Part shown: one piece after another, positions 12,715 through 35,174 of the stretch
Layout of the letters: the number at the start of each line of letters is the position of its first letter
Numbering within the stretch: position 1 is the stretch's first letter
Position numbers and translations under genes: made by a program
Notes under the pieces: generated by a model
Database searches by the model: none
What the model was told of the DNA's origin: nothing
Seen by the model: the letters and a program-made list of their open reading frames with translations, nothing else
Origin: Prochlorococcus sp. AG-436-K22
Lineage (GTDB): Bacteria; Cyanobacteriota; Cyanobacteriia; PCC-6307; Cyanobiaceae
Assembly: GCA_003212555.1 (NCBI GenBank)
Contig: QCPK01000002.1
Span: 1-64,000 of the forward strand
Length of the DNA: 64,000 bases
Direction of reading: 5' to 3'

Positions 12715-13152
12715 TCAATTTATATAGTTTACTTGAGAAGTTCTTTCTCTTTCACCCATTGGGGGAACAAGCTTATTCAGCGACCTAAGAAAATAAGGTA
12801 ATACAAAGAATGTTCCAGCAGCAATCGAAACTAATAAATTCATCCAAAACTCTTCATTCTTCTTTTGTGTCCACTTAGTTCTTTTCACATTTGAATTAAC
12901 TATAGAAAAAACCTTTTTTGATTTTGCTTCTTCTTGTTTTGCTTCTTCCTGCTTTTTAATTAAAACCATCTTCTCATAGGAATCAAAACCGTAAATGTTT
13001 TCATTTCTTTTTTCAGTACTATGTGTATCTTTGTTGATTCCTTGAAATGACTTAGACATTTCACCTTCCTTCTTGACAGGAATAGGAATACCGCAGTTCC
13101 AACAATAATTTACCTTTGAATTAATCTCTGCTCGGCAATTAATGCAAATCAT
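12715..13152 (-). CDS. zinc-ribbon membrane protein
   Basis: A 145-residue protein with an N-terminal zinc ribbon (MICINCRAEINSKVNYCWNC, two C-x-x-C knuckles), a long charged Lys/Glu linker with coiled-coil character (about residues 45-105) and one membrane helix near the C-terminus (NLLVSIAAGTFFVLPYFL). The ribbon differs from the CxxCGAP ribbons of the 18-31 kb cluster but the layout is alike: a cytoplasmic zinc ribbon tethered to the membrane. Such proteins accompany SPFH/PspA-type envelope systems in other bacteria. Confidence 0.7.
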   Translation of the reverse strand: MICINCRAEINSKVNYCWNCGIPIPVKKEGEMSKSFQGINKDTHSTEKRNENIYGFDSYEKMVLIKKQEEAKQEEAKSKKVFSIVNSNVKRTKWTQKKNEEFWMNLLVSIAAGTFFVLPYFLRSLNKLVPPMGERERTSQVNYIN

Positions 13153-13271
13153 TCAGAACATAAATATTACCTAAAGCATACCCACCAAAGGCAATTGCCA
13201 TACTTCATATGAACAAGAATCAATAGCAATCATTAACTATAGCCTTCTTCTTAGTGTCATTACCTTTACGC

Positions 13272-13670
13272 CTAATTAAAATCGCCAATTTTTTTACAAG
13301 ACGCTCCATGGCTTGCACCATGAGGATATATAAACTTATACCTCCAAGTAGAACGATCTATTATTGTTTCCCCATTACCAGTGAGAGGTTCTCCGTTAGC
13401 AAAAATTATGATTTGACTGTCTGTAATACTTACCTTGCTTGAACCATACCTCACAGGTTTAGAGAAGGAATCTAATTGGCTATAAAAATCAACTGTATTA
13501 GCTTTAATATTTATGTCGTATTTAGTAATCCACTGCTTACCATTATCAGCAAGGGTTCTGGAACACTCCAAGTAAAGATGATTTGCGGATTGATTTCTCT
13601 TGCAGCCAACTATTGAGAGTAACAGTACACTCACAATCGCAATCCCTTTAATTATGTTTGATGATCTCAT
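13272..13670 (-). CDS. lipoprotein
   Basis: The open frame reaches 13700, but the methionine at 13670 gives a standard lipoprotein signal (MRSSNIIKGIAIVSVLLLSI, then VGC lipobox), so I choose it. The upstream codons derive from a hairpin repeat. The mature 110 residues are beta-rich with a second cysteine (LYLECSRTL) and a third near the C-terminus. Function unknown; probably membrane-anchored by lipid. Its neighbour upstream is a SHOCT-tailed membrane protein. Confidence 0.65.
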   Translation of the reverse strand: MRSSNIIKGIAIVSVLLLSIVGCKRNQSANHLYLECSRTLADNGKQWITKYDINIKANTVDFYSQLDSFSKPVRYGSSKVSITDSQIIIFANGEPLTGNGETIIDRSTWRYKFIYPHGASHGASCKKIGDFN

Positions 13671-13679
13671 GTAAGAAGT

Positions 13680-13707
13680 ATGCCGCTTTTTAAGCAGCAT
13701 TTCAAAA
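13680..13707 (-). repeat. hairpin repeat copy 1
   Basis: A 28-base sequence identical to 14640-14667. It contains the imperfect inverted repeat ATGCCGCTT / AAGCAGCAT with a tiny loop. It lies at the 5' end of the lipoprotein gene. The two copies bracket the SHOCT-protein gene. Confidence 0.8.
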
Positions 13708-13736
13708 GAACAAAAGTAATAAGCATTTCACAAATG

Positions 13737-14555
13737 CTAAATGCCCAACTTCTTTTTTCTAATTGCTTGGTACTCTTCTTCCGAAATCAACCCTCTGTCC
13801 AACATGCTCTTCAATTTCTCTAGCTGTACTTCCATGTGATCCAGCTCATCTTTCTTTTCAAAACTAAAAGGAATTGTGCGAAGTAACTTATTTATTTTTC
13901 CTGTGATTGGCTCGGAATCATCATCTGAAGTCAAATCGTCTACATTTTCTCCATTATCATCCTCTCTCTCTCTAAGTATCACTTTTGCATGCACTCTAGC
14001 CTGATCAATGCCTAGTTTTGCCCAATATACGGTGGAAGCAAAACTGATGAGATAGATCAATGCGCCTAATCTACTATCAGGTTCAAACGGTATACCAAGA
14101 ATTAAAACTAGAAGAACAATTGCTAGCTGTCCACCAAGACAAAATAGATATGGGGTATATGTTGACCTACTTAAAGCATAATAAATCCCTACGCCTGGAA
14201 TGATATGTCCAAATGCATAACCCCAACCAACATCTCTTAACCTCCTTTGAAATGCTTTCTTCTTTCCATGAATCCAGCGCTTATCATTAAAACTCTGATT
14301 CATACGACTTCGGGCTAAACCAGGGTCGTATCCTTTAGGCACAGAACTCTCTGTTCGCAGTTCGTTACAAGCAGGTTCTATTAATAAGGCCCCTTTAGGT
14401 ACTTCTATGATTATTTTATGATCAATATTTCTCAAAACAAATAATTCGGAACCATACCATTCTGAATAAGATAACGAAGCTATTTCAGCACTACGCAACT
14501 CACCAGTCCTTAATGCAATTGCCACTGCTCGATTAAAAGCGTCTTCAAATTCCAT
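13737..14555 (-). CDS. membrane protein with C-terminal SHOCT motif
   Basis: A 272-residue protein. An N-terminal soluble domain of about 120 residues includes ELRSAEIASLSYSEWYGSEL. Two or three membrane helices follow (about residues 115-195, with YLFCLGGQLAIVLLVLILGI), then an acidic linker, and the last 32 residues form a SHOCT motif (LEKLKSMLDRGLISEEEYQA). SHOCT is a short helical tail found on many envelope proteins. The SPFH protein at 21406-22374 carries the same kind of tail, a link between the two halves of the island. Confidence 0.7.
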   Translation of the reverse strand: MEFEDAFNRAVAIALRTGELRSAEIASLSYSEWYGSELFVLRNIDHKIIIEVPKGALLIEPACNELRTESSVPKGYDPGLARSRMNQSFNDKRWIHGKKKAFQRRLRDVGWGYAFGHIIPGVGIYYALSRSTYTPYLFCLGGQLAIVLLVLILGIPFEPDSRLGALIYLISFASTVYWAKLGIDQARVHAKVILREREDDNGENVDDLTSDDDSEPITGKINKLLRTIPFSFEKKDELDHMEVQLEKLKSMLDRGLISEEEYQAIRKKKLGI

Positions 14556-14673: not shown

Positions 14674-14766
14674 GGAGACCTTAAAGATGCCTGTGAAGAC
14701 TGGAAGAAAGCAACAGAGTTAGGTGATGAAGATGCTGCAGAGTTATTGAAGGAGCATTGCGAATGA
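14674..14766 (+). pseudogene. C-terminal remnant of a TPR gene
   Basis: The frame reads GDLKDACEDWKKATELGDED and ends AELLKEHCE-stop, the typical last repeat of the island's TPR proteins (compare GACSDWALATKLGDPDAMKL in the 1004-residue protein). Everything upstream is gone, replaced by the hairpin repeat. The stop codon touches the tRNA-Pro relic, so this was the end of an older element. Confidence 0.7.
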
Positions 14767-14804
14767 CCTAGTGCTTCACATGCACCCGCGCTAAATCAAT
14801 GCAG
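14765..14804 (-). repeat. tRNA-Pro middle relic
   Basis: Two exact blocks of the tRNA-Pro gene, GACCTAGTGCT and GCACCCGCGCTA, are kept in order and spacing, with changes in the anticodon loop and D-arm side. It is on the minus strand like the intact gene 1.6 kb away. It cannot fold as a working tRNA. I read it as a degraded attachment site of an earlier insertion. Confidence 0.75.
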
Positions 14805-16369: not shown

Positions 16370-16443
16370 TCGGGGCGACAGGATTCGAACCTGCGACCTA
16401 GTGCTCCCAAAGCACCCGCGCTACCAAACTGCGCCACGCCCCG
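16370..16443 (-). tRNA. tRNA-Pro(TGG)
   Basis: The minus strand folds as a full cloverleaf: acceptor CGGGGCG / CGCCCCG, D-arm GCGCAGTTTGGTAGCGC, anticodon stem-loop with TGG, and T-arm GGTTCGAATCC. CCA is not encoded. It is the only complete copy; three partial copies lie in the window. The integrase gene begins 143 bases beyond its 5' end. An inserted element would have restored the 5' half of this gene, leaving the old 5' half at 34973-35007. Confidence 0.97.
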
Positions 16444-16585: not shown

Positions 16586-17781
16586 ATGCCCTCGCGTAAG
16601 CACGCTGATGATTGGGTACTGGCTCTGAGAGACCAGCTCCGTTTAAGCGTAGGTTCAGCTTACCGAGTTGGGGAGCGTCGTGGCAAAACAAAATTGGATG
16701 TTCGTTTTCAAAACGGCACAAGACAGTACGCAACTCTAGACATAGCTTGGCTTCCTGCTAACTCAAGAAAGATCCAAGAGAGTGTTGAAAAGGTTGCTGG
16801 ACTTGTAACAGGGGGAAGAAATGTCAAAGAAGCTTATGAAGCCCTTTTTGGAGCTTCTATACCAGTTCCAGAAGCAAACGAGTCAGCATCCGCTCTATTA
16901 GTTCAAGCATGGGATCTATTTGGGGCTTATAAAATTAGAAAAAATAAAATAAAAGCATCCACCTGGAATAAGGATTACGGGACAACTGGCAGACGATTAA
17001 AAGAAGTTTCTGATGCTAAAGACGCTTTTGACCTATTAGAGAGAGCTGGAGAGAAATGGGAAGCAGGATCAAGACAGAGGCAAATATCACTTCAACACAT
17101 TTCTGCAATGCTCAAGAGGGAGAAAAGATCTTAGCTGCTAATCGTTGGACTCCCCCAGTTGAATTAAAAGGGTTTTATGGGGATAAGGTTGAAGCCAAGC
17201 AAGATGCAGTTCCTTTGCAAGATGATGAAATTATTACTTTCCTAAAAAGCTTGCCTGTTGAATCCAAACATCCCCGAGACAAAGAGGCGGCAAAGCGTTG
17301 GAAGTTTGCTTTTGAATTAATGGCCGCCTTTGGTCTACGTCCAATCGAAATTAAACATCTAGCAGTTGAGAATGGAGAATTATGGTGCAATTACATTAAG
17401 CGCAGCGGGTCAGGTCAGACAAAACCTAGAAGACTTAGATGCCTAAATTCATGGGCTTCTGAATGGAATTTAATAGAACGTATAGCCAATAATGAACCAT
17501 TACCCCTATGCAAAGTAGGTGTTGCTGATGCTGCACGTACTTATCTTAAGAGACAAAAGTCATGGGATTCTTTAGCTAAGGCTGGCAAGACTTCCTACAG
17601 CTTCAGACATGGCTTTGCACTGAGATGTCACCAACAATATGGACTAAGCGTAAGGATTGCATCCGCACTGTTAGGACACAGTACAGATACGCACATTAGA
17701 TCTTATGGAACTTGGACTGATGAGGATGAAATTGATAAGGCTTTAGCTCGAGGCCAAAGATACAAGGAGTTGACAAGTTAG
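16586..17781 (+). pseudogene. tyrosine recombinase (integrase), frameshifted between domains
   Basis: The first frame (16586-17134) holds an N-terminal DNA-binding part and a SAM-like core-binding domain. The second (open from 17056, used from about 17120 to 17781) holds the catalytic domain. It keeps the active-site signs: Arg in AFGLRPIEIKHL, Lys near KRSGSGQTKPRR, SYSFRHGFALRCH, GHSTDTHIRSYG with the final histidine and tyrosine. The two join near GAGGGAGAAAAG with a one-base shift. Together they make a normal protein of about 400 residues. Either a base was lost, or this is an assembly error, or frameshifting occurs; no canonical slippery heptamer is seen. The enzyme would integrate the element at tRNA-Pro. 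Confidence 0.88.
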
Positions 17782-17932: not shown

Positions 17933-18157
17933 ATGTCTTATGAATTACCAGCGGGGCTTTGGCTCCGAACTAAGGATGTTGTAGGCGAATTAAATTTGTC
18001 TAAGGCAACTCTTTTTCGCAGAAAAAAGGAAGGCTATTTCAAGTTAGGGACTCACTTTGTAACTACTGGGCCAACTCCTAGAGCAAATGTTCTTTGGAAT
18101 GTTGATGCTTGCCGCAAAGTACTTTCTCTTTGGGAAGTTCCAGAGGAGAAAGGCTGA
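17933..18157 (+). CDS. AlpA/excisionase-like helix-turn-helix protein
   Basis: A 74-residue protein. LRTKDVVGELNLSKATLFRR is a winged helix-turn-helix of the excisionase/AlpA type, followed by a wing (GTHFVTTGPTPRANVLWN) and a short C-terminal helix. It starts about 150 bases after the recombinase and is co-directional, the usual place for an excisionase or element regulator. Confidence 0.75.
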   Translation: MSYELPAGLWLRTKDVVGELNLSKATLFRRKKEGYFKLGTHFVTTGPTPRANVLWNVDACRKVLSLWEVPEEKG

Positions 18158-18411: not shown

Positions 18412-19548
18412 TTATAAATTACTTCTCTTACAAACCTTCTTGAACAAGGCATCGTATTGAACACTGAGATGCTTCCTTTGAATCTTTTCATAAGCAAGAT
18501 CATCCTTACTCCTCTTTACTGCACGACGCCAAAGTTGAAGCATATCTTTTCTCTTCTGAGCAGTGCATTTATGCTCAAAGCCCTTACGAAGACCACAGGC
18601 TTTTTTATCCGCTAGTCTTTCAGAAAGTATTTTCTTATCTCTCCTGAGAATCTGTTTATGCCATGCTATATATTCGCCATCTTCAATGTCGGACATATAA
18701 GAATAGTTTGTAATCCACCACAGCTTTCCCATTCTTCTCGCAAGCATTTCAGGCTTTTCCCTTAAATATTGCTTCTCTTCCTCCTTCCCATATTGGCTAG
18801 GGAACCTTGATTGTCTTTCATAGAACTCATTCATTCCACCTGTTTGGTAATAAGCAATTAGTACTTGGCTACAATTGATAGCTAAATCAAAGAGGTTTTC
18901 TGTAGAAGGCTCTTCCCCGCCCTTTGAACTTGCTACCTTATAGACATTCCAATCTCCTGCTTCTCTTTTTGAACCAATGTCATAGTAATCTTTGCGCTGA
19001 GTGTGCTGATCTATGCATTCTGCAAGAGGTTTATTACGCCTATATTTAGTACACCAAGCTTTTTTATAAGCTATCGATGCTTTAGATTTCTCAGTCGCAT
19101 AAAGAACAAATTCTCCAGTTTCTTCTGGAAGTGGTGCTCTATAGGGTAGGTCTGGATAGAATGGTTTTGCGGTTTGTGGGTAATTTACTCGCATATATAT
19201 TTTCCAAGAAGCAACTAAACCTATTGGTATTGCAAATAGAAGTACAACATTCTTTTTTCGACTAAACAATCTGGTGATCTGTTTCCCTAAAAAATCAACT
19301 TGAGAGTCAGATAAAAGTTTCTGTTTTTTTAAAAGATTTCTTCCTTTTTCACTTACTGCATCTTTAGAAGGAATTGGGATACTCCTAAAAGCAAGTTTTG
19401 TTTTATTAAGGATGTCACCAACTACACCTATATATTGACTTCTTCCTGTAACTGGTTGACCACAGTACTCACAGTTTTTACCTACAGAGAATTTATCCCA
19501 TTGAATGGGAGCACCGCAGCGACTACATTTTGCTGGGACATTGCTCAT
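18412..19548 (-). CDS. zinc-ribbon / one-helix membrane protein (378 aa)
   Basis: Residues 1-35 form a zinc ribbon (CSRCGAPIQWDKFSVGKNC with CEYCG). Then come a linker with LLKKQKLLSDSQVDFLGKQI, a basic stretch, one membrane helix (VVLLFAIPIGLVASWKIYM, about residues 98-116) and a C-terminal domain of about 260 residues rich in charged residues and with several cysteines. The first 120 residues match the paralogues at 23158, 26465 and 29546. This one lacks TPRs. Its C-terminal domain is not recognised. Confidence 0.75.
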   Translation of the reverse strand: MSNVPAKCSRCGAPIQWDKFSVGKNCEYCGQPVTGRSQYIGVVGDILNKTKLAFRSIPIPSKDAVSEKGRNLLKKQKLLSDSQVDFLGKQITRLFSRKKNVVLLFAIPIGLVASWKIYMRVNYPQTAKPFYPDLPYRAPLPEETGEFVLYATEKSKASIAYKKAWCTKYRRNKPLAECIDQHTQRKDYYDIGSKREAGDWNVYKVASSKGGEEPSTENLFDLAINCSQVLIAYYQTGGMNEFYERQSRFPSQYGKEEEKQYLREKPEMLARRMGKLWWITNYSYMSDIEDGEYIAWHKQILRRDKKILSERLADKKACGLRKGFEHKCTAQKRKDMLQLWRRAVKRSKDDLAYEKIQRKHLSVQYDALFKKVCKRSNL

Positions 19549-20006: not shown

Positions 20007-20099
20007 CTGAGCTGACAAAAAAGAGTACTAAAGGAAATAGTATTTTTTAGATGTCATTATTAAAAGACATGAGATAATAAGGGAAGAGGATTACTTATT

Positions 20100-21323
20100 T
20101 TGAAAAAAGAAATAACTAAAAATACATCATTAGTCTTACTAACCAGTCTGTACTGCTTTTTGCCAGCACCAAGTCTGGCGAATCCAAGCGAGGCTTATAA
20201 GGAGAAAGCAGATTGTATTGATAGCCCTGACTTTGTAACACCCAAAGAAAAGACATTTAAATACTGCCTCAAATCAAACGGTGTCATTAATAAAATCAAT
20301 GAGGAAGGAGAGCTTGTAGAAGAGAAAGCTCAACTCAACAAGACACTAGAAGACAAGGTAAGAAAAGGTTTTGGATCTACAACCAGTTTGCTTGAGTACA
20401 AGATTGAAGAAGATGAGTTAGTTCAATACAAATGCACAGCTAAAAAGGTTGGCTCAAAGTATGAGTGTGATGGATCAGGTGAGAGGTCTTTAAAAGGTGT
20501 GAGACCAGACGGATATTACCTTGAGAAAGGTTTGAAAGATATAGAAGATGAGAAGTGGAATGCTGCATTAGAGAACTTCACTTCTGAGATTGAGTTAAGC
20601 AAAGACAAAGATGCCTATTACCAAAGAGCTTTTGCAAAATTCATGCTTGAGGATTATTTGGGCTCAATTAAAGATGCCAATACACATCTGAAATCTGATA
20701 AGAACAACATCAAGGCATACAACTTAAGGAGTATGGCCAAGTACCAAATAAATGATCATAAAGGGGCTATTAAAGATTTAAACAAGCTCATCGTCCTATG
20801 GGAAAAGCTTGATGAGAGCGAGAGATCAGAGCTTGAGATTAAAGAAATCAACCCAGTCTTTGACAAGTTCTATTACCGACGTGCTTTGTCTAAAAGTGAA
20901 GCCGGTGACCAACGTGGTGCTGTAAAAGATTTTGACCAGGCGATTGAGAACAATCCACTTCATGGTCAAGCTTATTTCCAAAAAGGATTAGAGAATTATT
21001 GGTCTGATAGAGATTCAGCCTGTTCAGATATTCTGCAAGGCATGACTCTTGGGGCTTCTGATACAAGTAGCAACTTAATTAAAGAGAGAGCTGATTCTGA
21101 TTCGTTCCTTGATGAATTGTTTGACCAAGACAAAACATTGGTTGATGCTTGTGAAGATTCAAGTGATGAAAAGATCCAAAAGAATAAAGGCAATTATGAC
21201 TTTGAGCAACTGATGAATAAGTCCTATGAGCTATTAATTAAATACATATTGCTCGTGCCCATCTTCCTTATTGTCATTATTTCTCTTGTAATTAAATACA
21301 ATGGCAAAGATGATGATGAATAG
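20100..21323 (+). CDS. secreted/membrane-anchored TPR protein (407 aa)
   Basis: It starts at TTG with an upstream AAGAGG. Residues 1-27 are a signal peptide (TSLVLLTSLYCFLPAPSLAN). A cysteine-containing domain of about 110 residues follows, then about five TPR-like repeats (YYQRAFAKFMLEDYLGSIKD; YYRRALSKSEAGDQRGAVKD), and a C-terminal membrane helix (YILLVPIFLIVIISLVI, about 379-396) with a short acidic tail. It is anchored in the membrane with TPRs outside the cytoplasm, if the signal is used. It is followed co-directionally by the SPFH gene. Confidence 0.75.
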   Translation: MKKEITKNTSLVLLTSLYCFLPAPSLANPSEAYKEKADCIDSPDFVTPKEKTFKYCLKSNGVINKINEEGELVEEKAQLNKTLEDKVRKGFGSTTSLLEYKIEEDELVQYKCTAKKVGSKYECDGSGERSLKGVRPDGYYLEKGLKDIEDEKWNAALENFTSEIELSKDKDAYYQRAFAKFMLEDYLGSIKDANTHLKSDKNNIKAYNLRSMAKYQINDHKGAIKDLNKLIVLWEKLDESERSELEIKEINPVFDKFYYRRALSKSEAGDQRGAVKDFDQAIENNPLHGQAYFQKGLENYWSDRDSACSDILQGMTLGASDTSSNLIKERADSDSFLDELFDQDKTLVDACEDSSDEKIQKNKGNYDFEQLMNKSYELLIKYILLVPIFLIVIISLVIKYNGKDDDE

Positions 21324-21405
21324 GTTCTAATAATATAAAAATTAGTTTAAGCATCTGATAATTATTGACCCTACTGATAAACTGAATCAAATTGTTTAGC
21401 AGAAA

Positions 21406-22374
21406 TTGGCAATAGCCACGATAGAAAGTAATCCCCGGAAGGACTACTTAGTTTGGAGACATCCGAATAGAGATATCTCAGTTGGTTCGCAAATTCTTGT
21501 GAATGAAAGTGAAGAGGCTTTACTCTTTGAGAACGGACAGCTCCTACATATTCTTAAAGCCGGTAAACACTTAGTTGAAGCAGGTAATATTCCAGGTCTC
21601 GATGGACTGATTAGAAGATCTATTGGTAATAATTCAGCGATTAAAATTGATATTTGGTTCGTTACTAAGACCTCCTCTACTGACTACAAATGGGGCGTTC
21701 AATTACAAGCTAAAGATTCCACACATCAACTGATTGTTCCTGTTGGATCCTATGGCTCCATGCTCCTAAGAATTGAAGACCCAGCATCACTAGTGATACA
21801 GGTTGTTGGGAAGAAGATGTCTATGAGCAAAGATGAGCTCAAGGAATTTCTTGTTCCCAATATTGAGAGAAGCCTCAAGGACTACATCGCTGACAAGATT
21901 AAAAGAGGAACACTTGATATCTTTAGCATCGAATCAATTTTAGAAGAAGCCTCAACTGCAACAAAGAAATCTATTGAGCGCTCCTTTGAAAGATTTGGTT
22001 TAAAGCTGATTGATTTCTTCATTCAAGGGATTGAGGTTATTGGTGATAACCCTGAATACATCAAGATCAAAGAAAGTCTTGCAGATGCTGCAAGTTTAAG
22101 AATTAGAGCAAAAGCTGCTTCTGATACACAAGGTTTCTACCAACAGGAAAGAACACTTGATGCTCTTAATAAGGCTGCTGAGAAAGATACAGGAATGGCA
22201 GGCAATCTTCTTTCTAAAGGACTTGGAGGTATCAACATTGGCAGCTCTGGCAATAAGGATTCAGGTGGTGACATAAAACAAAAGCTCTCTTCCTTGAAAG
22301 ATCTATTTGATTCAGGTCTGATCTCAGAAGCGGAATATGAAAAGAAGAAACAGGATTTATTAGGACAAATTTAA
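21406..22374 (+). CDS. SPFH-SHOCT protein (YdjI / virion-core-like family)
   Basis: A 322-residue protein with a TTG start. Residues 10-215 fit the divergent SPFH family that includes Bacillus YdjI: LVWRHPNRDISVGSQILVNE, the ALLFENGQLLHILKAGKH strand pair, a conserved VPVGSYGSMLLRIEDP block and FGLKLIDFFIQGIEVIGDNP. Residues 285-322 are a SHOCT tail (LSSLKDLFDSGLISEAEYEK). YdjI proteins usually carry a C-terminal zinc ribbon and belong to a PspA-linked membrane-stress complex. Here the ribbon is absent but five neighbouring genes encode ribbons. I infer a peripheral membrane scaffold. Confidence 0.82.
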   Translation: MAIATIESNPRKDYLVWRHPNRDISVGSQILVNESEEALLFENGQLLHILKAGKHLVEAGNIPGLDGLIRRSIGNNSAIKIDIWFVTKTSSTDYKWGVQLQAKDSTHQLIVPVGSYGSMLLRIEDPASLVIQVVGKKMSMSKDELKEFLVPNIERSLKDYIADKIKRGTLDIFSIESILEEASTATKKSIERSFERFGLKLIDFFIQGIEVIGDNPEYIKIKESLADAASLRIRAKAASDTQGFYQQERTLDALNKAAEKDTGMAGNLLSKGLGGINIGSSGNKDSGGDIKQKLSSLKDLFDSGLISEAEYEKKKQDLLGQI

Positions 22375-22406
22375 ATCCTTATGATTAAAACCATCACGAG
22401 AGAGTC

Positions 22407-23084
22407 ATGAGAATAAAAAGAGCACTACCAATCCTTTGGCTTCCTTTAATAGGTTTCTGGACATTCCTCTTTGCTATACAGCTCAATACTCCTTCTACTG
22501 ACCTAGAAGGGGTTGTTCCATTAATCTCTTATTTACTGGTTTCATTCCTGCTTGTACTGCAGTTGCAGTTGGTTTTAGGCAATAAAAGGGAAGGAGCAAT
22601 CGTTAAATTTGGGACAACGAATGTCTTGTTATCATGCCTACTTGTTTCGAGTATTTCAGTCTTTTTAAATCTCGTTCAAGCTGCAGAGAATGAACTATCG
22701 ATTGCTCTAATCGTTGCACCGTTAATCATTAACACAATCATCGCCGAACTCTTCTCAGTATCCAACAAACAAATAGGTAAGAAGAGAGATGCTTGGATGA
22801 ATACCAACAAAGAGATTGAAGAAAGTCAGAGCAGATCCCTAGAAGACATTTCTAAAGAGAGAAATATCAGCCTGAGAACTAGAGAGGATTGGAAGAGATA
22901 TCTTCAACAAGCATCAATCGATCATTTGGGTAATAGTGAGATCTTAGATGAGATAACAAGAGTCAAAGATATTGTTCCCTTCAGCTCTTATTTTAGAACT
23001 GGCGAATCATCAGCAACTTTAAAGATGCTTGAGAGAGGGGTAGATGAGAGTCAGCTTCTTTTAGTACTTAAAACTATCAAATAA
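22407..23084 (+). CDS. four-helix membrane protein (225 aa)
   Basis: About four membrane helices in residues 8-115 (ALPILWLPLIGFWTFLFAIQ; LISYLLVSFLLVLQLQLVLG) are followed by a charged helical C-terminal half ending in TLKMLERGVDESQLLLVLKT, loosely like a SHOCT tail. It starts 32 bases after the SPFH gene on the same strand, so the two probably form an operon. Family not recognised; it may be the integral partner of the SPFH protein. Confidence 0.65.
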   Translation: MRIKRALPILWLPLIGFWTFLFAIQLNTPSTDLEGVVPLISYLLVSFLLVLQLQLVLGNKREGAIVKFGTTNVLLSCLLVSSISVFLNLVQAAENELSIALIVAPLIINTIIAELFSVSNKQIGKKRDAWMNTNKEIEESQSRSLEDISKERNISLRTREDWKRYLQQASIDHLGNSEILDEITRVKDIVPFSSYFRTGESSATLKMLERGVDESQLLLVLKTIK

Positions 23085-23157
23085 AAGAATAAGTAATGAA
23101 AAAACTAACAAGTAAATGTATTAATTATGGAGATCCATAAGAGAAGAAGCAGTAGCT

Positions 23158-25716
23158 ATGGGAAGAACATTTCAAAAATGTAATTACTGCGGAGCTCCAG
23201 TAAGCCTAAAGAATTCAGTCTTATTAGAAAATTGCAATTTTTGTGGTCAGCCAATTAATACAAGATTTAATTTCATAAATTTAGGCAACTCAAATAATTT
23301 TATATCTAGAGGATTTCTCTCACTAGAATCTTTTGCGATAAAGATAACAACTAGTTTAAAGGATAAGACTCTAGTATTAGCGAAAAAACAAACCATATTA
23401 TCCCAGTCGCAGATAGAAACTATATTTAAATATATTGATAAAATTTCTTCTAGTAGAAGAAATAGATTGTTGCTAATTGGTGTTCCCTTAGGTTTGTATA
23501 TTATAGCTACAATAAATGATCCATATAGAAAAAAATATAATCAACAGTGGTCTGAGAATAAGGAATGGTATGAAAGGAGATGTAGAAATGAATCTATGGA
23601 AGCTGGAAGTGAGTTTTTAGCTCGCAAATTATATTCAGATTGTTTCAAAGAGTTCAGGCAAGAAGTTAAAGAAGATGTAAAAGCTGAAATAGAAAAAGAA
23701 AAGATGAGGAAACAAAAAGAAAGAATAAGAAATAAAGAGCAAAGGAGGCAAGAAAAAATAAGAGTTAAAGAGCAAAGGGAGCAAGAGAGAAAAAGAATAG
23801 AAAAATCCAGGAAGGCTAAAGCAGCAAATGATAGGTGGATAGCTCAGAGAAAAAAGATAGCAGAGCAAGAGAAAAGGTTAGCTAAAAAAGATCTAAGAGT
23901 TAATCTAAAATTAGAGAAAAAGTTGACAATTCAAATATCAAAAAACAAGGATAATATATATATCCAATATAAAGAACGTGCAGATAAAAGAGATGAGATT
24001 GCTAAGGCAAATATTACCTTAGGGAAAAATAGCGAAGGAGATGGTTACAGACAGTTGGCTATAAATGATTACACCACAGCCATAAAACTCAGACCTGACT
24101 ATATAGATGCATATATTAATCGAGGTCTTACGAAGGAAGCCAGCTCTGACGTTATAGGAGCATGTAATGATTGGGCCAAAGCCTTTTCTCTAGGAGATAA
24201 AGAAGTTAAGGAATGGCTATCTCAAAGCTGTTTTTCTAAATATAGAAGAGCTGCAATTGAACAATTAGACAAAAATAATTATCAAATGGCTATTAAAGAA
24301 TTCACAAAGATTCTAAGCATTTGGCCCAAAACTGATTCTATTTTAGAAGAGCGTGCAAGCACACGGTTAAAATTAAATGACTATAAAGGAGCGATTAATG
24401 ACTATACTGAGGCCATAGAAATCAAACCTTCCGAGCACAATTATTATATTTCCAGAGCTAATACAAAATTAAAGTTAAAGGACTATAAAGGAGCGATGAA
24501 TGACTATACTGAGGCCATAGAAATCAAACCTTCCGAGCACAATTATTATATTTCCAGAGCTTATACAAAATTAAAGTTAAAGGACTATGATGGAGCTGAA
24601 GAAGATTATACAAAAGGAATTAAGATCAAACCATCTAAAGTTACTTATTACCTGTTAAGAGGAGATCTGAGAATTCAAGTTAAGAGTTACGATAAAGCTC
24701 TTTTAGATTACAATAAAGTCTTAGAATTAGAACAAGATAATGTAATTGCTTATCGAGAAAGAGGGCTTATTAAACTTAACTTAAAAGATGAAAATGGTTA
24801 TTGCAAAGATATAAAAAAAGCTTTGTCTCTAGGTGCAAGAAATATCAATAAAGAGCAAGTCAAGCAATATTGTCAACGACTAGAAATTCTAGCCAAAAAG
24901 CAATCTAAAAATGTGACTCTTTCAGAAAACGCAAAATATTATTTAGATAGGATAAGACCTATCTATCTAAAAAAAAGCAAATGTAAGGAAACGATTAGGC
25001 TTATTAATCTTTTGCTTCCACTATATGAAACTGATGTCATCTACTCCTATAGAGGAAAGGCTCAACAGCTATGTTCTAACTTTACAGAATCTATCAAAGA
25101 CTATAAAAGTGCTATTGAAATAAACAGTGAAGATTCGCTTTATTATAGCAACCTTGCTAAGAGTAAAAGCAAGCTTAAAGATTTCAAAGGAGCTCTTGAG
25201 GCTTATGACTTATCGATAAAATTAGCCTCAAAGGATTCTATTTATTATAGAGATAGAGGCATGATCAAAAATCAATTAGGAGATTACTTAGGTGCAATAT
25301 CAGATTTCCAAACATCTAAAACTACATTTAGAGAAAATTGCAAGTCTTCTGGATATTATTCTAATAGAAGTTGCAAACTAACAAAAGAAGGAAGAACATT
25401 TTACAAAAGCTCTTATGAATCTGAACTCAATGATGAAATTGGAAAAATTAGAATTAAGTTAAAAGATTATGTTCAAGCAATTTCGTCATTCGATAATTCA
25501 GGGTCGATGGAATCACGTCTATACCGAGGAATAGCAAAATATGAATTGCAAGATCTTGACTCTGCCTGCTCAGATTGGTATTACTACTCGAAGAAGAGAA
25601 AAGTGACAGGTTTTTTAAGTTACAAAGTTAAATATATAGCAGATCCTGATAAATTAAACTCGGTAAAACATAATGGCTCAACAATATATAGTTTGTATAA
25701 AAAGTATTGTAAGTAA
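23158..25716 (+). CDS. zinc-ribbon / one-helix / TPR membrane protein (852 aa)
   Basis: Zinc ribbon (residues 1-40, CNYCGAPVSLKNSVLLENC plus CGQ), linker with LAKKQTILSQSQIETIF, basic SSRRNR and one membrane helix (LLLIGVPLGLYIIATI). A cysteine-pair segment follows (RRC...LARKLYSDCFKEF), then about 80 residues of Lys/Glu/Arg coiled coil and some twelve TPRs from residue 290 on. Bases 24379-24582 are two near-identical 102-base TPR units. By charge, the ribbon is probably cytoplasmic and the TPR part on the other side, but this is not certain. Confidence 0.8.
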   Translation: MGRTFQKCNYCGAPVSLKNSVLLENCNFCGQPINTRFNFINLGNSNNFISRGFLSLESFAIKITTSLKDKTLVLAKKQTILSQSQIETIFKYIDKISSSRRNRLLLIGVPLGLYIIATINDPYRKKYNQQWSENKEWYERRCRNESMEAGSEFLARKLYSDCFKEFRQEVKEDVKAEIEKEKMRKQKERIRNKEQRRQEKIRVKEQREQERKRIEKSRKAKAANDRWIAQRKKIAEQEKRLAKKDLRVNLKLEKKLTIQISKNKDNIYIQYKERADKRDEIAKANITLGKNSEGDGYRQLAINDYTTAIKLRPDYIDAYINRGLTKEASSDVIGACNDWAKAFSLGDKEVKEWLSQSCFSKYRRAAIEQLDKNNYQMAIKEFTKILSIWPKTDSILEERASTRLKLNDYKGAINDYTEAIEIKPSEHNYYISRANTKLKLKDYKGAMNDYTEAIEIKPSEHNYYISRAYTKLKLKDYDGAEEDYTKGIKIKPSKVTYYLLRGDLRIQVKSYDKALLDYNKVLELEQDNVIAYRERGLIKLNLKDENGYCKDIKKALSLGARNINKEQVKQYCQRLEILAKKQSKNVTLSENAKYYLDRIRPIYLKKSKCKETIRLINLLLPLYETDVIYSYRGKAQQLCSNFTESIKDYKSAIEINSEDSLYYSNLAKSKSKLKDFKGALEAYDLSIKLASKDSIYYRDRGMIKNQLGDYLGAISDFQTSKTTFRENCKSSGYYSNRSCKLTKEGRTFYKSSYESELNDEIGKIRIKLKDYVQAISSFDNSGSMESRLYRGIAKYELQDLDSACSDWYYYSKKRKVTGFLSYKVKYIADPDKLNSVKHNGSTIYSLYKKYCK
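24379..24582 (+). repeat. tandem 102-bp TPR-encoding duplication
   Basis: Two 102-base units (24379-24480, 24481-24582) differ at only about two positions seen by eye; a third, diverged unit starts at 24583. One unit encodes exactly one 34-residue TPR, so the frame is kept. Confidence 0.9.
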
Positions 25717-25749
25717 TTTTTTTTATAGCCAGCTTGCTAGAGGTAATTA

Positions 25750-26364
25750 TTATTTCTGCAAACAGAACATTTTGTAGTAGGCATCTTTGATTTTCCCTTT
25801 AGAGTTTCCAAACCTCAATCCTGATCTAAGAGCTAACGCTCGATTCTCCCCAGCACCATGATGGGACTGACTATCAAATTCCTTATCTCCTAGCAAGGCA
25901 GCAGCAGTGATCATACTTTCAATATCGGATTGATTAAATGTCAGGTTAGGAATACTTGCAAGGATGACTCCAGCGAAGCAGTCCGCTTGAAGCTCAATCC
26001 TCATCGTGTTGTTTTGAGCTCTTGCGATTAATTGAGACTGAGCAAATTGAACGTGATGTGCATATTCATGAGCAACGACAAAAGCAACTGCAGCATCTCC
26101 TAATTTTGCTAACTGCTCCATGAACTCTTTCTCAAGGCAGATCAGTTGAGATCTTGAGTCGTAATAGGTGTCATCACACCAGTCCCACTTCACACGCTTG
26201 GCTTTAGATTTCTTCCCCATTGTCTTGGAGGCACCAGCCAGGACAACTTCAATCAATGACTCCATATCTTTTGTTCCATCCAAGGCTGCCTTAGCTGGGG
26301 ATTGCAACACTGGAACTGATAGCAATGCACAGAGTAAAGAAGATGAGAATATTTTTCTAAACAC
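25750..26364 (-). CDS. secreted neutral zinc metallopeptidase-like protein
   Basis: A 204-residue protein with a signal peptide (SSLLCALLSVPVLQSPAKAA). It has a zincin motif VVAHEYAHHVQFAQ (HExxH) and the downstream RIELQADCFAG glutamate, as in the YpfJ-type putative neutral zinc metallopeptidase family. A cysteine pair (WDWCDDTYYD; QLICLEKEF) precedes it. It would act outside the cytoplasm. It is on the opposite strand between two zinc-ribbon TPR genes, and may process them or another envelope protein; substrate unknown. Confidence 0.82.
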   Translation of the reverse strand: MFRKIFSSSLLCALLSVPVLQSPAKAALDGTKDMESLIEVVLAGASKTMGKKSKAKRVKWDWCDDTYYDSRSQLICLEKEFMEQLAKLGDAAVAFVVAHEYAHHVQFAQSQLIARAQNNTMRIELQADCFAGVILASIPNLTFNQSDIESMITAAALLGDKEFDSQSHHGAGENRALALRSGLRFGNSKGKIKDAYYKMFCLQK

Positions 26365-26464: not shown

Positions 26465-28282
26465 ATGAAAGGTCGATCTGCTAAATGCTTATACTGTGGG
26501 GCTCCTATCCGACTGGAACAGTCGGTACTATTTTCTAAATGTGATTTTTGTGGATCATCCTTTAACAAAACAGCTGAGATAATTCCATCAAATGCAATAA
26601 AAAACCTCTTTGATAGATCAACATCTGCTATATCTAAATTTGTCCAACCAATCCCAGGTAAGATAAAAGAAATAAGTCAAGAGTTACTTAAGAAACAAAC
26701 CATATTATCTAAACAACAAATTAATTCCCTTAACAGAAATAGAATAAGAGTTTTAAGTAAGAGAAGAAATATAGCTATTTTAATTGGAGTTCCAATAAGT
26801 CTATTTGCTTTTACAATCATTAATGACCCATTCAGAAAAGAGTTGAGTGAGAAAAGATCTTATATGGAAAGTTACTGTAGACGTCAAGCTGCAGGTATGA
26901 GCAATACATTTTTTGCAAGGAAGGAATATTCTGATTGCATTAAAGATTATAAAGAAGGGATAAGAGATGATATAAAGCGAGAGAAGAAACAGAGAAAAGA
27001 AAATATTAAAAGATCAAAAGAAAAAGCTAGAAGTCTGAAAATAAATAGTTTTATAACAGAAGGACGAAAGGCTTATGGGGAAGAAAATTATCAATTAGCT
27101 ATAAAGAATTATAGCAAAGCCATAAAGATGGAACCTAAGAATGCTTCAACATACAATAGAAGAGGCTTAGCTAATTTTGCCCTAAAGAAATACAGAAGAG
27201 CGCTCACTGATTTCACAAAAGCAATTAAAATAAATAATTTTGTAGCTGCTTATCATGCCAATTCAGGTAAATCAAGGTTTGAATTAAAACAATATAAATT
27301 AGCAATTCCTCATTATGAAAAAGCAATAGAATTATACCCTAGAAGAGATCTTTACCATAATATGCTAGGAGTAATTAGGTATAGTTTAGAGGAATACCAA
27401 ACATCAATTAAGCACTTCACAAAAGCAATCGAATTAGCTTCTAAGAAGCCAGTTTATTTTAGCAATCGTGGAAATGCAAGGTACAAAATTGGTCAATATA
27501 AGGAATCCTTGAATGATTATAATGTAGCTATAAAACTTAGCAAAAGTAATGCCAGCTATTACAATAGCAGAGGCAATATATATTACACTCTAGGTAATTA
27601 CTGGAACGCCATAAAAGATTACAAAACAGCCATTGAACTTAAACCAGAAGATAATTCAACTTTTCTAGAAAATCTTAAAGAAGCAGAAAACCAGTTAACT
27701 CCAAAAGATAAAAAAGAGAGGGAAGCAGAAGAAAAAAAGATGGAGCAGGAAAAAAGAAATAGGCAAAGTGCTAAGGGTTACTATGACAGTGCTATGAGTA
27801 AATATTACTTTGGCAAGTCATTTAAAGATAAAGTTAATGGTTGTGCTGATTATAGAAAAGCAATGCAATTAGGTTATCAACTCAAAGAAGGATCTTGGCC
27901 AAAGCTAGAATGCTACGGAAGCTCTAAAGAATCAAGCTACTACAAATCTGGAGTGAGCTTCTATTTTAAGGACGATTATAGAAATGCAATCTCTGAATAC
28001 AACAAAGGTCTTCAGTTAAACCCTTTTAATATTCGACTCTACGTAGCTCGTGGATTTTCTAAGTATTTGATTAAAGACTACAAAGGAGCAGTTTCTGATC
28101 AGACAAAAGCTATTGAATTAAGCCCAAATTATTCAGAAGGAATTGCCTACACCAATCGTGCTAATGCAAAATATAAGCTTGGTGAAATAGAAGCTGCATG
28201 TAGCGACAGAAATAAGGCAATGTCATTCCCATCAAGTACTCCAGTTAAGTTTAAGAGTAAGGTCTGTCGACCTTATGAGTAA
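26465..28282 (+). CDS. zinc-ribbon / one-helix / TPR membrane protein (605 aa)
   Basis: Same plan as the 852-residue paralogue: ribbon CLYCGAPIRLEQSVLFSKC plus CDFCG, LLKKQTILSKQQINSL, basic patch, helix IAILIGVPISLFAFTII, cysteine pair (SYCRRQ...FARKEYSDCIKDY), then about nine TPRs. A C-terminal part (VNGCADYRKAMQLGYQLKEG; SKVCRPYE) is shared almost word for word with the protein at 29546-31522. The stop overlaps the ATG of the following ribbon-helix-helix gene (TAATG), so the two are translationally coupled. Confidence 0.8.
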   Translation: MKGRSAKCLYCGAPIRLEQSVLFSKCDFCGSSFNKTAEIIPSNAIKNLFDRSTSAISKFVQPIPGKIKEISQELLKKQTILSKQQINSLNRNRIRVLSKRRNIAILIGVPISLFAFTIINDPFRKELSEKRSYMESYCRRQAAGMSNTFFARKEYSDCIKDYKEGIRDDIKREKKQRKENIKRSKEKARSLKINSFITEGRKAYGEENYQLAIKNYSKAIKMEPKNASTYNRRGLANFALKKYRRALTDFTKAIKINNFVAAYHANSGKSRFELKQYKLAIPHYEKAIELYPRRDLYHNMLGVIRYSLEEYQTSIKHFTKAIELASKKPVYFSNRGNARYKIGQYKESLNDYNVAIKLSKSNASYYNSRGNIYYTLGNYWNAIKDYKTAIELKPEDNSTFLENLKEAENQLTPKDKKEREAEEKKMEQEKRNRQSAKGYYDSAMSKYYFGKSFKDKVNGCADYRKAMQLGYQLKEGSWPKLECYGSSKESSYYKSGVSFYFKDDYRNAISEYNKGLQLNPFNIRLYVARGFSKYLIKDYKGAVSDQTKAIELSPNYSEGIAYTNRANAKYKLGEIEAACSDRNKAMSFPSSTPVKFKSKVCRPYE

Positions 28283-28461: not shown

Positions 28462-28545
28462 CGTGGAATCTAGGCTTCAGTATTTCTACCCCCTAGCGAA
28501 GTCAAAATTTCATGGTTTAGATGATGGTCCAGCCAAAAATAATTG

Positions 28546-29475
28546 ATGAGTAATCAGCAAGAGAAGAAGACGCAGCTCGAGATCAAAGGGACTGAACAAC
28601 TCAAGGACTCAGAAGAACTAAAAGCTGTAGCAAGCATCCTGACCACAACCTTCAATGAAATTGAAAACCGTTCATTAGGCGAATCTCTAAATAGTGTCCC
28701 AGTCAATTTCTACGACTTTGATGCATTAACACAAGGACTGCAGAGAGGCTCTTTGACTGTTGTTGCTGGTAGGCCAGCGATGGGGAAATCTTCTTTCGTA
28801 CTGAATATCTCTAAAAATGTAGCTCAAGTACATAACCTCCCAGTTTGCTATTTCAGCTTGGAGCTGAGTAAGGAGCAAATAACTTATCGATTACTTTCAA
28901 TGGAAATTGGAATTGAATCAGGGAGGTTACGCACTGGTCGTATACATAAAGATGAATGGCCAACCCTTGGTAAAGGTATTGAAGGACTGGGTAAATTACC
29001 GGTCTTCATCTGCGACAAGGGTTCAATCACAGTCAAAGAGATATTGGATAAGAGCCAAAAGATCAAAGAAGAATGGGGTAATGGTGAACTTGGGTTAATC
29101 GCCGTCGATTATGTGCAAATGATGGATGGACCGAATAAACAATCCAGAGATGATGAGCTCTCAAAGATCATTCTTGATTTTAAAGAAATGGCAAAAGCGT
29201 TAAATGTACCTGTCATTTTAATGTCTCAACTTAGTAGGGATATTGAGTCTCGAATCAATAAACGTCCAATGCTTTCTGATTTAAGAGAAACACAAGCATT
29301 AGAAAGTCATGCTGACTTAGTCGTGATGATCTATCGAGATGAATATTATGACGCTGACACGGCAGACCGAGGGATTACAGAACTCATCACTTGCAAACAT
29401 CGCAATGGTCCTGTTGGGACAGTGAAACTCCTATTTGAGCCCGAATTCACAAGGTTTAGAAATTTAGCAGCGTAA
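28546..29475 (+). CDS. DnaB-like helicase, RecA domain only
   Basis: A 309-residue protein with the DnaB C-terminal motor: Walker A AGRPAMGKSSF, CYFSLELSKEQITYRLL, Walker B LGLIAVDYVQMMDG, MSQLSRDIESRINKRPMLSD and the C-terminal DLVVMIYRDEYY. The N-terminal primase-interaction domain of DnaB (about 150 residues) is missing. It is an accessory, element-borne helicase and not the cellular replicative one. It may help the excised element replicate. Start taken at ATG 28546; a TTG lies one codon upstream. Confidence 0.88.
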   Translation: MSNQQEKKTQLEIKGTEQLKDSEELKAVASILTTTFNEIENRSLGESLNSVPVNFYDFDALTQGLQRGSLTVVAGRPAMGKSSFVLNISKNVAQVHNLPVCYFSLELSKEQITYRLLSMEIGIESGRLRTGRIHKDEWPTLGKGIEGLGKLPVFICDKGSITVKEILDKSQKIKEEWGNGELGLIAVDYVQMMDGPNKQSRDDELSKIILDFKEMAKALNVPVILMSQLSRDIESRINKRPMLSDLRETQALESHADLVVMIYRDEYYDADTADRGITELITCKHRNGPVGTVKLLFEPEFTRFRNLAA

Positions 29476-29545: not shown

Positions 29546-31522
29546 ATGAAAGGCATACCAGACAGTTGCAGTAGATGTGGAGCACCAATCAAATGGCATG
29601 AAGGCTCTTCATCAATTAACTGCGAATTCTGTGGAACTAAAAACTATATAAAAGATGATCTCAACCATTCAACAGTAACCAAAAATAATTTATTTTCTAA
29701 TTGGTTCAATAAAAAAAGGGGCTTCTTAATCACTTTAATTATAATAATTATTCCAGTCAGTTACTTTCTAATATCCAAAGCAGAAAATGAATATCTCTCT
29801 AAAAATAAAAAGGGCTGTCAAAATAAATCAGCCAACTATTTAAATGAATTCACTGCAAAAAAAGCATATTCAGATTGCATGAAGCAATTACGATTAGACT
29901 ACAAAGAATATAAAGCAGAAAAATATAATAAGCTCGCTAATGAGAAAATCGATGAAGGTGACAGAAAATCAGCAATTAAGTATTTTTCCAAGGCTATCAG
30001 AGTTAACCCTAAAGCAAGTTATTATCATTCTAGAGGTGACTCGAAAAGCTATTTAAATGATATTAAAGGCCAATTGAAGGACTATTCAAAAGCTATAGAA
30101 ATTGACCCTGTTCCAAGCAATTATCATATTAGAGGTGACCTAAAAGGTAAGTTAAATGATATTAAAGGGGAAATGGAAGATTATACAAAGGCTATAGAGA
30201 TTAGCCCTAGCTATAAAAATTATTCGTTGAGGTCAGATAAAAGGGAGTTCAGAGGAGATTACGGAGGAGCCATTAATGACATTACCAATCTTATATCTAA
30301 AACTCCTTATCATAATCCTGATCGTGTTAGTTCTCTTTACTATAGAAGAGGAGATTTAAAAACTAAAATTAATGATTACAATGGAGCGATTCAAGACCTT
30401 ACTAAAGCTATTACAAAAGCCCCTAAACGCAGTAAATCATTAATATTACGGTCATTTAAATTAAGAGGAGAGACTAAAGTAAAGATATTAGATTACGATG
30501 GTGCATTAGAGGATTATAGTAACAGTATAAAATATATACCAAGAAACAAATTCAGCTCTAATAGTAAGAAAGCAGCAATGTATATAGAAATAGCTAACAT
30601 ATTAATTATACAAGAAAGAATTGGAGAAGCTATAGATAATTACTCGAAAGCCATCGACATTTGTAAAATCAATGAAAAGAATGTAACTCGATGTGTTAAT
30701 TCAACATGGTCTGATTGGAATTCAGAGCCTCCTTATATCCAAAGAGCTCAGGCCAAAATAAGATTGAATAACACGCAGGGAGCAGTAGATGATTATATAA
30801 AAGCTATAGAGAGAGATATAGACGCTTATCGTTCTTATGAAGCATTTGAAAATCTAACAATAAAATTAGACAATCTTGAAACTTCTTGCAATAGTTGGGA
30901 AAGACTAAATAAAGTATTGAACAAGAAGACAACAGAATTCTTTATGGTAAGAGATATAAAAGGTGTATCCAAGGCAGAGGTAGCTACTAAGCTTAAAGAA
31001 TGTAAAACTAAATTAGAAAATCTTAAAGATGCAAAAAACCAGTTAACTCCTACAGATAAGAAAGAAAGGGAAGCAGAAGAAAAAAAGATGGAGCAGGAAA
31101 AAAAGAATAAGCTAGATGCTCAGGGTTACTATGACAGTGCAACGGCAAAATATTACTATTCAAATTCATTTATAGAACAAGTAAATGGCTGTGCAGATTA
31201 CCGAAAGGCCTCCAAGTTAGGCTATCAGCTTAAAGATGGATTTTGGCCTAAAAAAGAATGCAGCGGTAACTCAGATAGTGCAACTTATTACTCATATGGA
31301 AGAAATGCATTTTCCAAAAAGCAATACATTGAAGCTATCAATCTATATAACAAAGGTATTCGTCTAAATCCTTTTCATTCCAAGCTCTACAATGCACGTT
31401 CCAATGCAAAATATAAGCTAGGTGAAATTGAAGGTGCTTGTAACGACAGAGCGAAAGCTATCGAATTAGGGATAACAACCCCAGTAGATTTAAAAAGCAA
31501 GGTCTGTAGACCTTATGAATAA
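29546..31522 (+). CDS. zinc-ribbon / one-helix / TPR membrane protein (658 aa)
   Basis: Ribbon CSRCGAPIKWHEGSSSINC plus CEFCG, helix GFLITLIIIIIPVSYFLISK, cysteine pair (KGCQNKS...AKKAYSDCMKQL), then about nine TPRs and the C-terminal VNGCADYRKASKLGYQLKDG / CRPYE block shared with the 605-residue protein. Its linker before the helix is shorter, without the KKQTILS motif. It is the first gene of the second, partly decayed TPR-regulator-helicase module. Confidence 0.8.
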   Translation: MKGIPDSCSRCGAPIKWHEGSSSINCEFCGTKNYIKDDLNHSTVTKNNLFSNWFNKKRGFLITLIIIIIPVSYFLISKAENEYLSKNKKGCQNKSANYLNEFTAKKAYSDCMKQLRLDYKEYKAEKYNKLANEKIDEGDRKSAIKYFSKAIRVNPKASYYHSRGDSKSYLNDIKGQLKDYSKAIEIDPVPSNYHIRGDLKGKLNDIKGEMEDYTKAIEISPSYKNYSLRSDKREFRGDYGGAINDITNLISKTPYHNPDRVSSLYYRRGDLKTKINDYNGAIQDLTKAITKAPKRSKSLILRSFKLRGETKVKILDYDGALEDYSNSIKYIPRNKFSSNSKKAAMYIEIANILIIQERIGEAIDNYSKAIDICKINEKNVTRCVNSTWSDWNSEPPYIQRAQAKIRLNNTQGAVDDYIKAIERDIDAYRSYEAFENLTIKLDNLETSCNSWERLNKVLNKKTTEFFMVRDIKGVSKAEVATKLKECKTKLENLKDAKNQLTPTDKKEREAEEKKMEQEKKNKLDAQGYYDSATAKYYYSNSFIEQVNGCADYRKASKLGYQLKDGFWPKKECSGNSDSATYYSYGRNAFSKKQYIEAINLYNKGIRLNPFHSKLYNARSNAKYKLGEIEGACNDRAKAIELGITTPVDLKSKVCRPYE

Positions 31523-32391: not shown

Positions 32392-32475
32392 GCCAAAACG
32401 TTAAATGTTCCTGTCATTTTAATGTCTCAACTTAGTCGGGATATTGAATCTCGAATCAATAAGCGTCCAATGCTT
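32392..32475 (+). pseudogene. DnaB-like helicase fragment
   Basis: About 80 bases closely match 29193-29275 inside the element helicase gene (VPVILMSQLSRDIESRINKR region). Nothing else of the gene remains. At its right end the sequence switches to integrase-leader sequence. The 255 bases before it (32137-32391) hold nothing I recognise. Confidence 0.85.
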
Positions 32476-32728
32476 TTGCTGCTTGCATCAACAAGCCTCA
32501 GATTCGATCATTCGGGCATCTTTACCACCAGTGAAGCTCACTGACTATGCCCCTTACGAAAAGACGCTGATGTTGAATACTGGCTCTAAGAGACCAGGAC
32601 CGCTTAAGCGTATTTCCAGCCTATCGGGTTGGGGAGCGTCGTGGCAAAACAAAATTGTATGTTAGTTATGATAACGGAACAAGACATTACACAACTCTTG
32701 TTATAGCTTGGCTTCCAGCTAACTCATA
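32468..32728 (+). pseudogene. integrase leader and 5' fragment
   Basis: From 32468 the sequence follows 16484-16530 (TTGCTGCTTGCATCAACAAG), loses the tandem 11-bp repeats, and from about 32555 follows the first 190 bases of the integrase gene with several substitutions and stops. It is a dead copy of the recombinase start, co-oriented with the live one. Confidence 0.85.
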
Positions 32729-34659: not shown

Positions 34660-34972
34660 TCTTTACTGATTAAATATTTTCCCTATATTAATAAAAGCTT
34701 TAAGTTAATTCCACAAAAAGAAAGGATTCTTTAGCTTCCAAAAATACTTAAAAAGGTATTAATCAAAATATCAGAGAATAAATATATTGAGTTATAGCAA
34801 AGAAACAAACCTCTGGGTCTATCTAAAATAGGACGAGTGTCTTGTATGCACAATTACTTCTGTTAACACCTGTGTCTATATTGCTTTTGCCACCCGCCTT
34901 CACTCGCATGGATAATTTTACATTTACAAAGCACTCCTATAAAAGAGTAACTCTTATTTCAAGTAATATTCA
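34660..34972. other. intergenic stretch, right edge of the island
   Basis: About 310 AT-rich bases between the membrane-protein gene and the tRNA relic. I see no gene or repeat in it. Confidence 0.35.
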
Positions 34973-35007
34973 CAAAGCACCCGCGCCCTAAAGTGCGCTA
35001 AACCCCG
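34973..35007 (-). repeat. tRNA-Pro 5'-half relic (right attachment-site remnant)
   Basis: Matches the 5' half of the tRNA-Pro gene from the anticodon to the first base: CAAAGCACCCGCGC is exact, followed by a diverged D-arm and the terminal CCCCG. It has the same orientation as the intact gene 18.5 kb away. It is what an insertion at the anticodon loop would leave at the far end, and marks the right border of the island. Confidence 0.8.
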
Positions 35008-35174
35008 TAAAATAAATTTCAATTTGCCATTTGTTCATTTAAGCGAAAAGTCATTAGATTCTGTCTCAACAATAATCACATCGCCTAAGAACATGTCATG
35101 AAATATTTTTGCGACCAAAACTCATAAAGAATGATCTTTCTGTAGCAAAATAGTTATGCAACGCATAGGTAAAA

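Follow-up and report, generated by a model that had tools for sequence, protein, structure and literature searches.

Positions 20100-26364 of the window (the whole 64,000-nucleotide stretch of Prochlorococcus contig QCPK01000002.1 analyzed here) appear to hold the cargo core of an island that targets tRNA-Pro. With moderate confidence, we propose that this core encodes a mobile, PspA-independent SPFH device for envelope surveillance or membrane organization, with zinc-ribbon proteins as its exchangeable adaptors. A specialist would be surprised by the exchangeable ribbon slot and by the lack of dependence on PspA. The SPFH-SHOCT fusion itself is ordinary, since SHOCT partners PF13421 most often (PMC3581485).

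Gene Content of the Region

The region consists of five genes, encoding a TPR-helix protein, an SPFH-SHOCT protein, a four-helix membrane protein, a ribbon-helix-TPR protein and, on the opposite strand, a peptidase (Table 1). The SPFH protein matches PF13421 (Band_7_1, E 2.5e-26) and PF09851 (SHOCT, E 2.7e-9). A zinc ribbon was looked for in this protein and its relatives and none was found, the SHOCT tail being present instead; no hydrophobic segment was found in it either, i.e., it has no membrane helix of its own. The first gene of the region likewise has no ribbon. The four-helix protein contains four hydrophobic segments, and a family search returned no match for it, TPM domain included. 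The peptidase matches PF04228 (Zn_peptidase, E 3.2e-13), has a signal-peptide-like N-terminus and carries an HExxH motif (HEYxHH) that is invariant in nine relatives. As it scores under the NCBIfam equivalog cut-off for the KPN_02809/YpfJ type, it probably represents a divergent branch of that PF04228 type. A reading made earlier from the letters alone (hereafter the sequence-only reading) was correct on these points, as it had described an SPFH protein with a SHOCT tail and no ribbon, with a four-helix protein and a secreted metallopeptidase nearby.

Comparison of the window with a 95%-identical relative gave dN/dS values of 0.07-0.29 across the module genes, which indicates purifying selection; the peptidase, at 0.07, is under strong constraint. 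The host genome is a low-GC, 1.27-Mb, 72% complete Prochlorococcus; among named records that carry these genes, Prochlorococcus sp. AG-402-G10 is the nearest. A sequence search of the PDB returned no matches, and monomer structure models, predicted from two near-identical sequences, reached pLDDT values of 37.5 and 47.8, below 50.

Table 1. Features of the island in window coordinates, with the basis of each assignment.
Feature	Position	Strand	Basis
Intact tRNA-Pro(tgg), left island end	16370..16443	-	ARAGORN and Rfam
Tyrosine recombinase, broken frame (ORFs 16586-17134, 17056-17781)	16586..17781	+	PF00589 E 2.6e-4; phrog_1 E 3.7e-12
Small ORF, AlpA/excisionase-like by eye only	17933..18157	+	No family match
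Ribbon-gene stub, 69 aa, without membrane helix	18200..18409	-	DNA 96% identical to L004:14293-14486, elsewhere placed there
Ribbon, KQxxLSxxQ linker, one membrane helix, predicted outward domain	18412..19548	-	Alignment; homolog L036:6755-7861, 46%
TPR protein, predicted secreted, conserved cysteines and C-terminal membrane helix	20100..21323	+	Alignment; orthologs in carriers
SPFH (Band_7_1) and SHOCT protein	21406..22374	+	Family matches and alignment
Four-helix membrane protein, conserved predicted cytosolic tail (EIxRIxDIVEYSSYFR)	22407..23084	+	Alignment; seen only with type I SPFH
Hypervariable-slot gene: ribbon, helix, TPR domain, 852 aa	23158..25716	+	Slot comparison with L004
HExxH zinc metallopeptidase, predicted secreted (PF04228)	25750..26364	-	Family match, motif, start region
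Zinc ribbon, helix and TPR protein	26465..28282	+	ORF and family search, alignment
DnaB-type helicase C-terminal domain protein of the element	28543..29475	+	PF03796 E 4.4e-84; L004 66%, L037 74%
Zinc ribbon, helix and TPR protein, partial duplicate of 26465-28282	29546..31522	+	Family search, repeats
dnaB fragment fused to recombinase-start fragment	32392..32726	+	Direct repeats D4, D6, D8
Decayed 5' half of original tRNA-Pro, right island end	34970..35008	-	Unbroken match of L093:13769-14328 to 34970-35528, 73%

Zinc-Ribbon Genes

Five ORFs of the window begin with a common CxxCGAP...CxxCG ribbon (all listed in Table 1). The sequence-only reading had placed five neighbors with ribbon and membrane helix around the SPFH gene. 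The number of ribbon ORFs agrees, but only the slot gene lies inside the region, the other four being outside it, and the stub has no helix. The slot protein's helix has only moderate hydrophobicity (mean 1.58 over 19 residues). In the alignment, most of the longer ribbon proteins share a KQxxLSxxQ linker ahead of the helix. In eight out of nine ribbon proteins tested, the more positive flank of the helix was on the ribbon side, with one tie, and by the positive-inside rule this would place the ribbon end in the cytosol.

Beyond the tRNA-Pro, a second SHOCT protein with one membrane segment (13737-14555) and a small ribbon-helix protein (12715-13152) are encoded on the reverse strand within 12715-14555, so that, counting the main block, SHOCT/ribbon pairs are seen twice in the window.

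Recurrence and Co-Inheritance

Among the 400 Cyanobiaceae genomes searched, 17 have a clearly related SPFH protein (36-96% identity), while others reach 25-30% only; carriers make up about 4% of the set. G073 gave an additional match, to the four-helix gene, on a contig that ends exactly at the expected SPFH start. Lack of a recurrent neighborhood in other genomes had been named beforehand as an outcome that would refute the sequence-only reading, to be checked by co-occurrence analysis. The neighborhood does recur: the four-helix gene is present in 15/15 genomes of type I, i.e., those with a close SPFH, and a ribbon gene, of several unrelated kinds, lies near SPFH in 16/16 assessable loci. 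In type I the four-helix gene directly follows SPFH except at contig ends, the G356 copy being split over two contigs. The other genomes sampled do not have this gene, no convincing case of it outside the SPFH family was found among 386 genomes across the phylum, and profiles built without the outlying G058, G224 and G345 still recover them.

The first four-helix profile included all loci, and a split-profile test was hence made. The membrane gene of the type II loci was not detectably homologous in this test, and the statement that all SPFH genomes have the four-helix gene was narrowed to type I. The two type II loci, G010 and G179, belong to different genera, and their SPFH proteins are 59-62% identical to each other. 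Besides SPFH and this unrelated membrane gene, they have a small ribbon gene and a two-helix gene of 240 aa, and neither a TPR nor a peptidase gene. Therefore, the universal set would comprise SPFH, a membrane protein and a ribbon only.

Co-occurrence was counted in 80 genomes, 18 carriers and 62 non-carriers, with Fisher tests. Full-length orthologs of the TPR-helix gene were found in 14/18 carriers and 0/62 non-carriers, and peptidase orthologs in 12/18 and 0/62, respectively, one of the 12 being a broken partial copy. The ribbon module was present in 14/18 carriers vs. 2/62 non-carriers, an enrichment that is partly circular because the ribbon profile was made from these loci. Ribbon genes at remote places provide a cleaner test, with few copies (6/18 carriers vs. 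1-2/62 non-carriers, p ~1e-3 or less). Ribbon-like ORFs are also concentrated around SPFH, accounting for 20/110 ORFs within 4 kb of it and 2/75 beyond 6 kb (p = 7e-4). Together with the recurrence of the block, this clustering indicates that the arrangement is not due to chance. Gene-to-gene distance matrices correlate with r 0.81-0.93 (Mantel p ~5e-4), which could be caused by shared transfer instead of contact. These comparisons show that the TPR-helix, SPFH-SHOCT, four-helix and peptidase genes form a conserved block that is inherited together, always with a ribbon gene near it.

A Hypervariable Ribbon Slot

Downstream of the four-helix gene, a ribbon gene occupies a hypervariable slot that has been swapped in two genome pairs with 89-95% identical flanks. 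In the first pair, window positions 20098-23104 match L004 at 94.7% identity and positions 25749-26363 at 94.0%, while the 2.6 kb between them has been replaced, the window having the 852-aa ribbon-TPR gene and L004 an unrelated 197-aa ribbon gene. In the second, G026 and G052 have flanks of 91.5% and 89.3% identity and slot genes of 687 and 175 aa, respectively. When G396 is compared with G374 and G335, the ribbon protein shows 72-83% identity over its first ~95 residues and differs thereafter. The membrane anchor is retained and the outer part of the slot protein exchanged. The earlier description of the system as modular fits well with this in-place exchange of the ribbon gene between near-identical copies.

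The Island and Its Mobility

In G151 and G093, which belong to the same genus and have no module, the site is unfilled, and the homolog of gene 35175 lies ~170-200 bp from tRNA-Pro. In the window, half of a tRNA-Pro is joined to the resident flank at 34970-35008. It follows that 18.6 kb (16.37-35.0 kb) was inserted in tRNA-Pro, with the intact tRNA and the recombinase at one end and the tRNA remnant at the other. The mobile element postulated by the sequence-only reading thus corresponds to an island whose empty site can be recovered from relatives and whose far end retains part of the tRNA. At 32392-32726, a dnaB fragment meets a recombinase-start fragment (32468-32726) at CAATGCTTT. This stretch looks like the remnant of an earlier copy of the element, which was probably deleted via short homology.

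The SPFH identities reverse the ranking given by TrmFO. Against same-genus G010, SPFH is 38% and TrmFO 77% identical, whereas against other-genus G052 and G003 SPFH is 83% identical and TrmFO only 72% and 68%. The block has thus moved between genera. Closeness to tRNA genes was dropped as evidence of mobility, since finding a tRNA within 20 kb at 7/14 loci is close to what tRNA density would predict. Searches of phages and IMG/VR with the SPFH and ribbon module gave no matches; IMG/VR matches to the peptidase (28-34% identical) and plasmid matches to SPFH (21-30% identical) were generic and were rejected.

Further tRNA-Pro fragments were observed at 2616-2678 and 14765-14793, which suggests a putative older island at ~2.6-16.4 kb, on the 3' side of tRNA-Pro. 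In this neighboring island, 8447-11461(-) encodes a 1004-aa protein that is nearly all TPR repeats. Two Cyano-1 sRNA genes (RF01701) were seen at 12549-12614(-) and 37391-37456(+), the latter near a strong palindrome at 37451-37491.

Proposed Function and Alternatives

To get an idea of how the parts could work together, we propose the following. The region would be the cargo core of a tycheposon-like, tyrosine-recombinase island, and its SPFH protein would form an oligomer on the inner membrane face. Since this protein has no helix, the four-helix protein would hold it at the membrane, in the way that YdjH does for YdjI, and the cytosolic ribbon ends of the single-pass proteins would dock on the SPFH scaffold. 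The variable domains of these single-pass proteins, TPR or other, would extend into the periplasm or lumen and serve there as exchangeable sensors or adaptors, close to the secreted TPR protein and to the metallopeptidase, which may be the executor. Envelope surveillance is the likely role, and we prefer it because all parts are predicted either to be secreted or to sit in or at the membrane, and because related SPFH proteins act in membrane stress.

The exchangeable slot could also be read as part of a previously undescribed mobile immune or superinfection-exclusion system, which we consider unlikely. Here the variable outward domains would act as ribbon-anchored receptors that recognize phage contact or injection, the PspA-independent SPFH would read them, the SPFH/peptidase part would execute a membrane response, and the slot would be swapped by recombination between the conserved flanks. 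The patchy distribution of the module (~4% of the 400 genomes), its mobility and a hypervariable slot between conserved flanks are what an arms race would predict, and an Mrr-like nuclease (L043:4614-5693) and an LmuA-like gene (L044:5699-6979) lie near the G335 and G224 copies, respectively. However, such candidate defense genes stand next to these two relatives only and are not consistent, most neighbors are non-defense genes, and PADLOC gave no match to the module beyond weak, chance-level HExxH or TPR similarities (E ~1e-3). Its absence from phages and IMG/VR neither supports nor excludes this reading.

Somewhat less probable still is membrane-protein quality control, in which SPFH would enclose a membrane patch in an HflK/C-like manner and the TPR proteins and metallopeptidase would fold or trim envelope proteins. 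The secreted, strongly constrained HExxH peptidase is linked to the block, and there is precedent for SPFH proteins fencing proteases (PMC9950537). Nevertheless, the peptidase is not found in about one third of the carriers and lies on the opposite strand, and the exchangeable slot would be left unexplained.

The sequence-only reading had drawn the comparison with the PspA-linked complex of Bacillus, and a membrane-repair system of that YdjI/PspA kind, here in split form, would be in line with the shared SPFH family and the separate ribbon and membrane partners. We regard this as very improbable, and it is largely refuted by the distribution of PspA: PspA_IM30 (PF04012) was not found in 9/18 carriers and, where present, it is distant and never adjacent. 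Carriers without it include G000 and near-complete g1 and g17 genomes; G374, G335 and G010, also without it, are 99-100% complete, against 72% for the genome of the window. In addition, the four-helix protein has no TPM domain and the SPFH no ribbon. The remaining explanation, unlinked cargo genes sharing the island by coincidence, is the least probable, for although islands gather unrelated genes and the content around the block varies, it is strongly contradicted by the adjacency of SPFH and four-helix genes at different genomic places and by the four-way co-occurrence.

The module offers a small and well-delimited set of genes for studying how SPFH-ribbon assemblies function where PspA is absent. 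It also raises the question of whether the islands of Prochlorococcus, beyond nutrient genes, carry functions in the envelope or against phages.

Comparison with Known Systems

In B. subtilis, YdjI has no helix, binds the membrane only with the help of YdjG and YdjH, and recruits PspA there (PMC8581546), while YdjG bears ribbons in a separate gene and YdjH has a TPM domain (PMC11237479). The module resembles pspA-ydjGHI in having a PF13421 SPFH without its own helix, adjacent membrane protein(s) and an adjacent ribbon-bearing membrane protein, and by analogy its SPFH may, like YdjI, rely on a membrane partner for tethering. In contrast to YdjI, the Prochlorococcus SPFH has SHOCT in place of the C-terminal ribbon, and the four-helix protein differs from YdjH in having no TPM domain. 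The module also adds a secreted TPR protein and a metallopeptidase, is mobile and has the exchangeable ribbon slot. It does not belong to the YdjGHI-PspA system.

The sequence-only reading had put forward a split between SPFH and ribbon. This split is not distinctive, as YdjG and about 15 large-genome Cyanobiaceae (L073-L089) also have a separate ribbon gene, the latter as a chromosomal SPFH followed by a ribbon/zf-TFIIB-like gene and, in most of them, a dephospho-CoA-kinase-like (coaE) gene, with zf-TFIIB and coaE assigned by eye. Ribbon in trans therefore seems to be a family-wide rule. The chromosomal pair, for which no published description was found, differs in its SPFH (25-30% identical, with a GYF-like or proline-rich tail), its soluble ribbon protein, the lack of four-helix, TPR or peptidase genes and its stable place upstream of coaE.

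The 18.6-kb insert presumably matches the tycheposon island type. It shares with tycheposons the complete tRNA beside a tyrosine recombinase, the tRNA remnant at the far end, the empty site in relatives and the variable cargo, and differs in that the recombinase frame is broken in the window copy. A secondary account of this island type gives a tRNA border with a tyrosine recombinase (PMC10872708). HflK/HflC-FtsH and other SPFH scaffolds share the scaffold idea and the associated protease with the module, but there the SPFH subfamily is another one, while here the protease is of the secreted PF04228 type. To our knowledge, hardly any work exists on SPFH proteins of PF13421 or on SHOCT tails, common as both are. 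Here, such an SPFH is found with a dedicated four-helix partner, in cells without PspA, beside a slot in which the outer domain is swapped.
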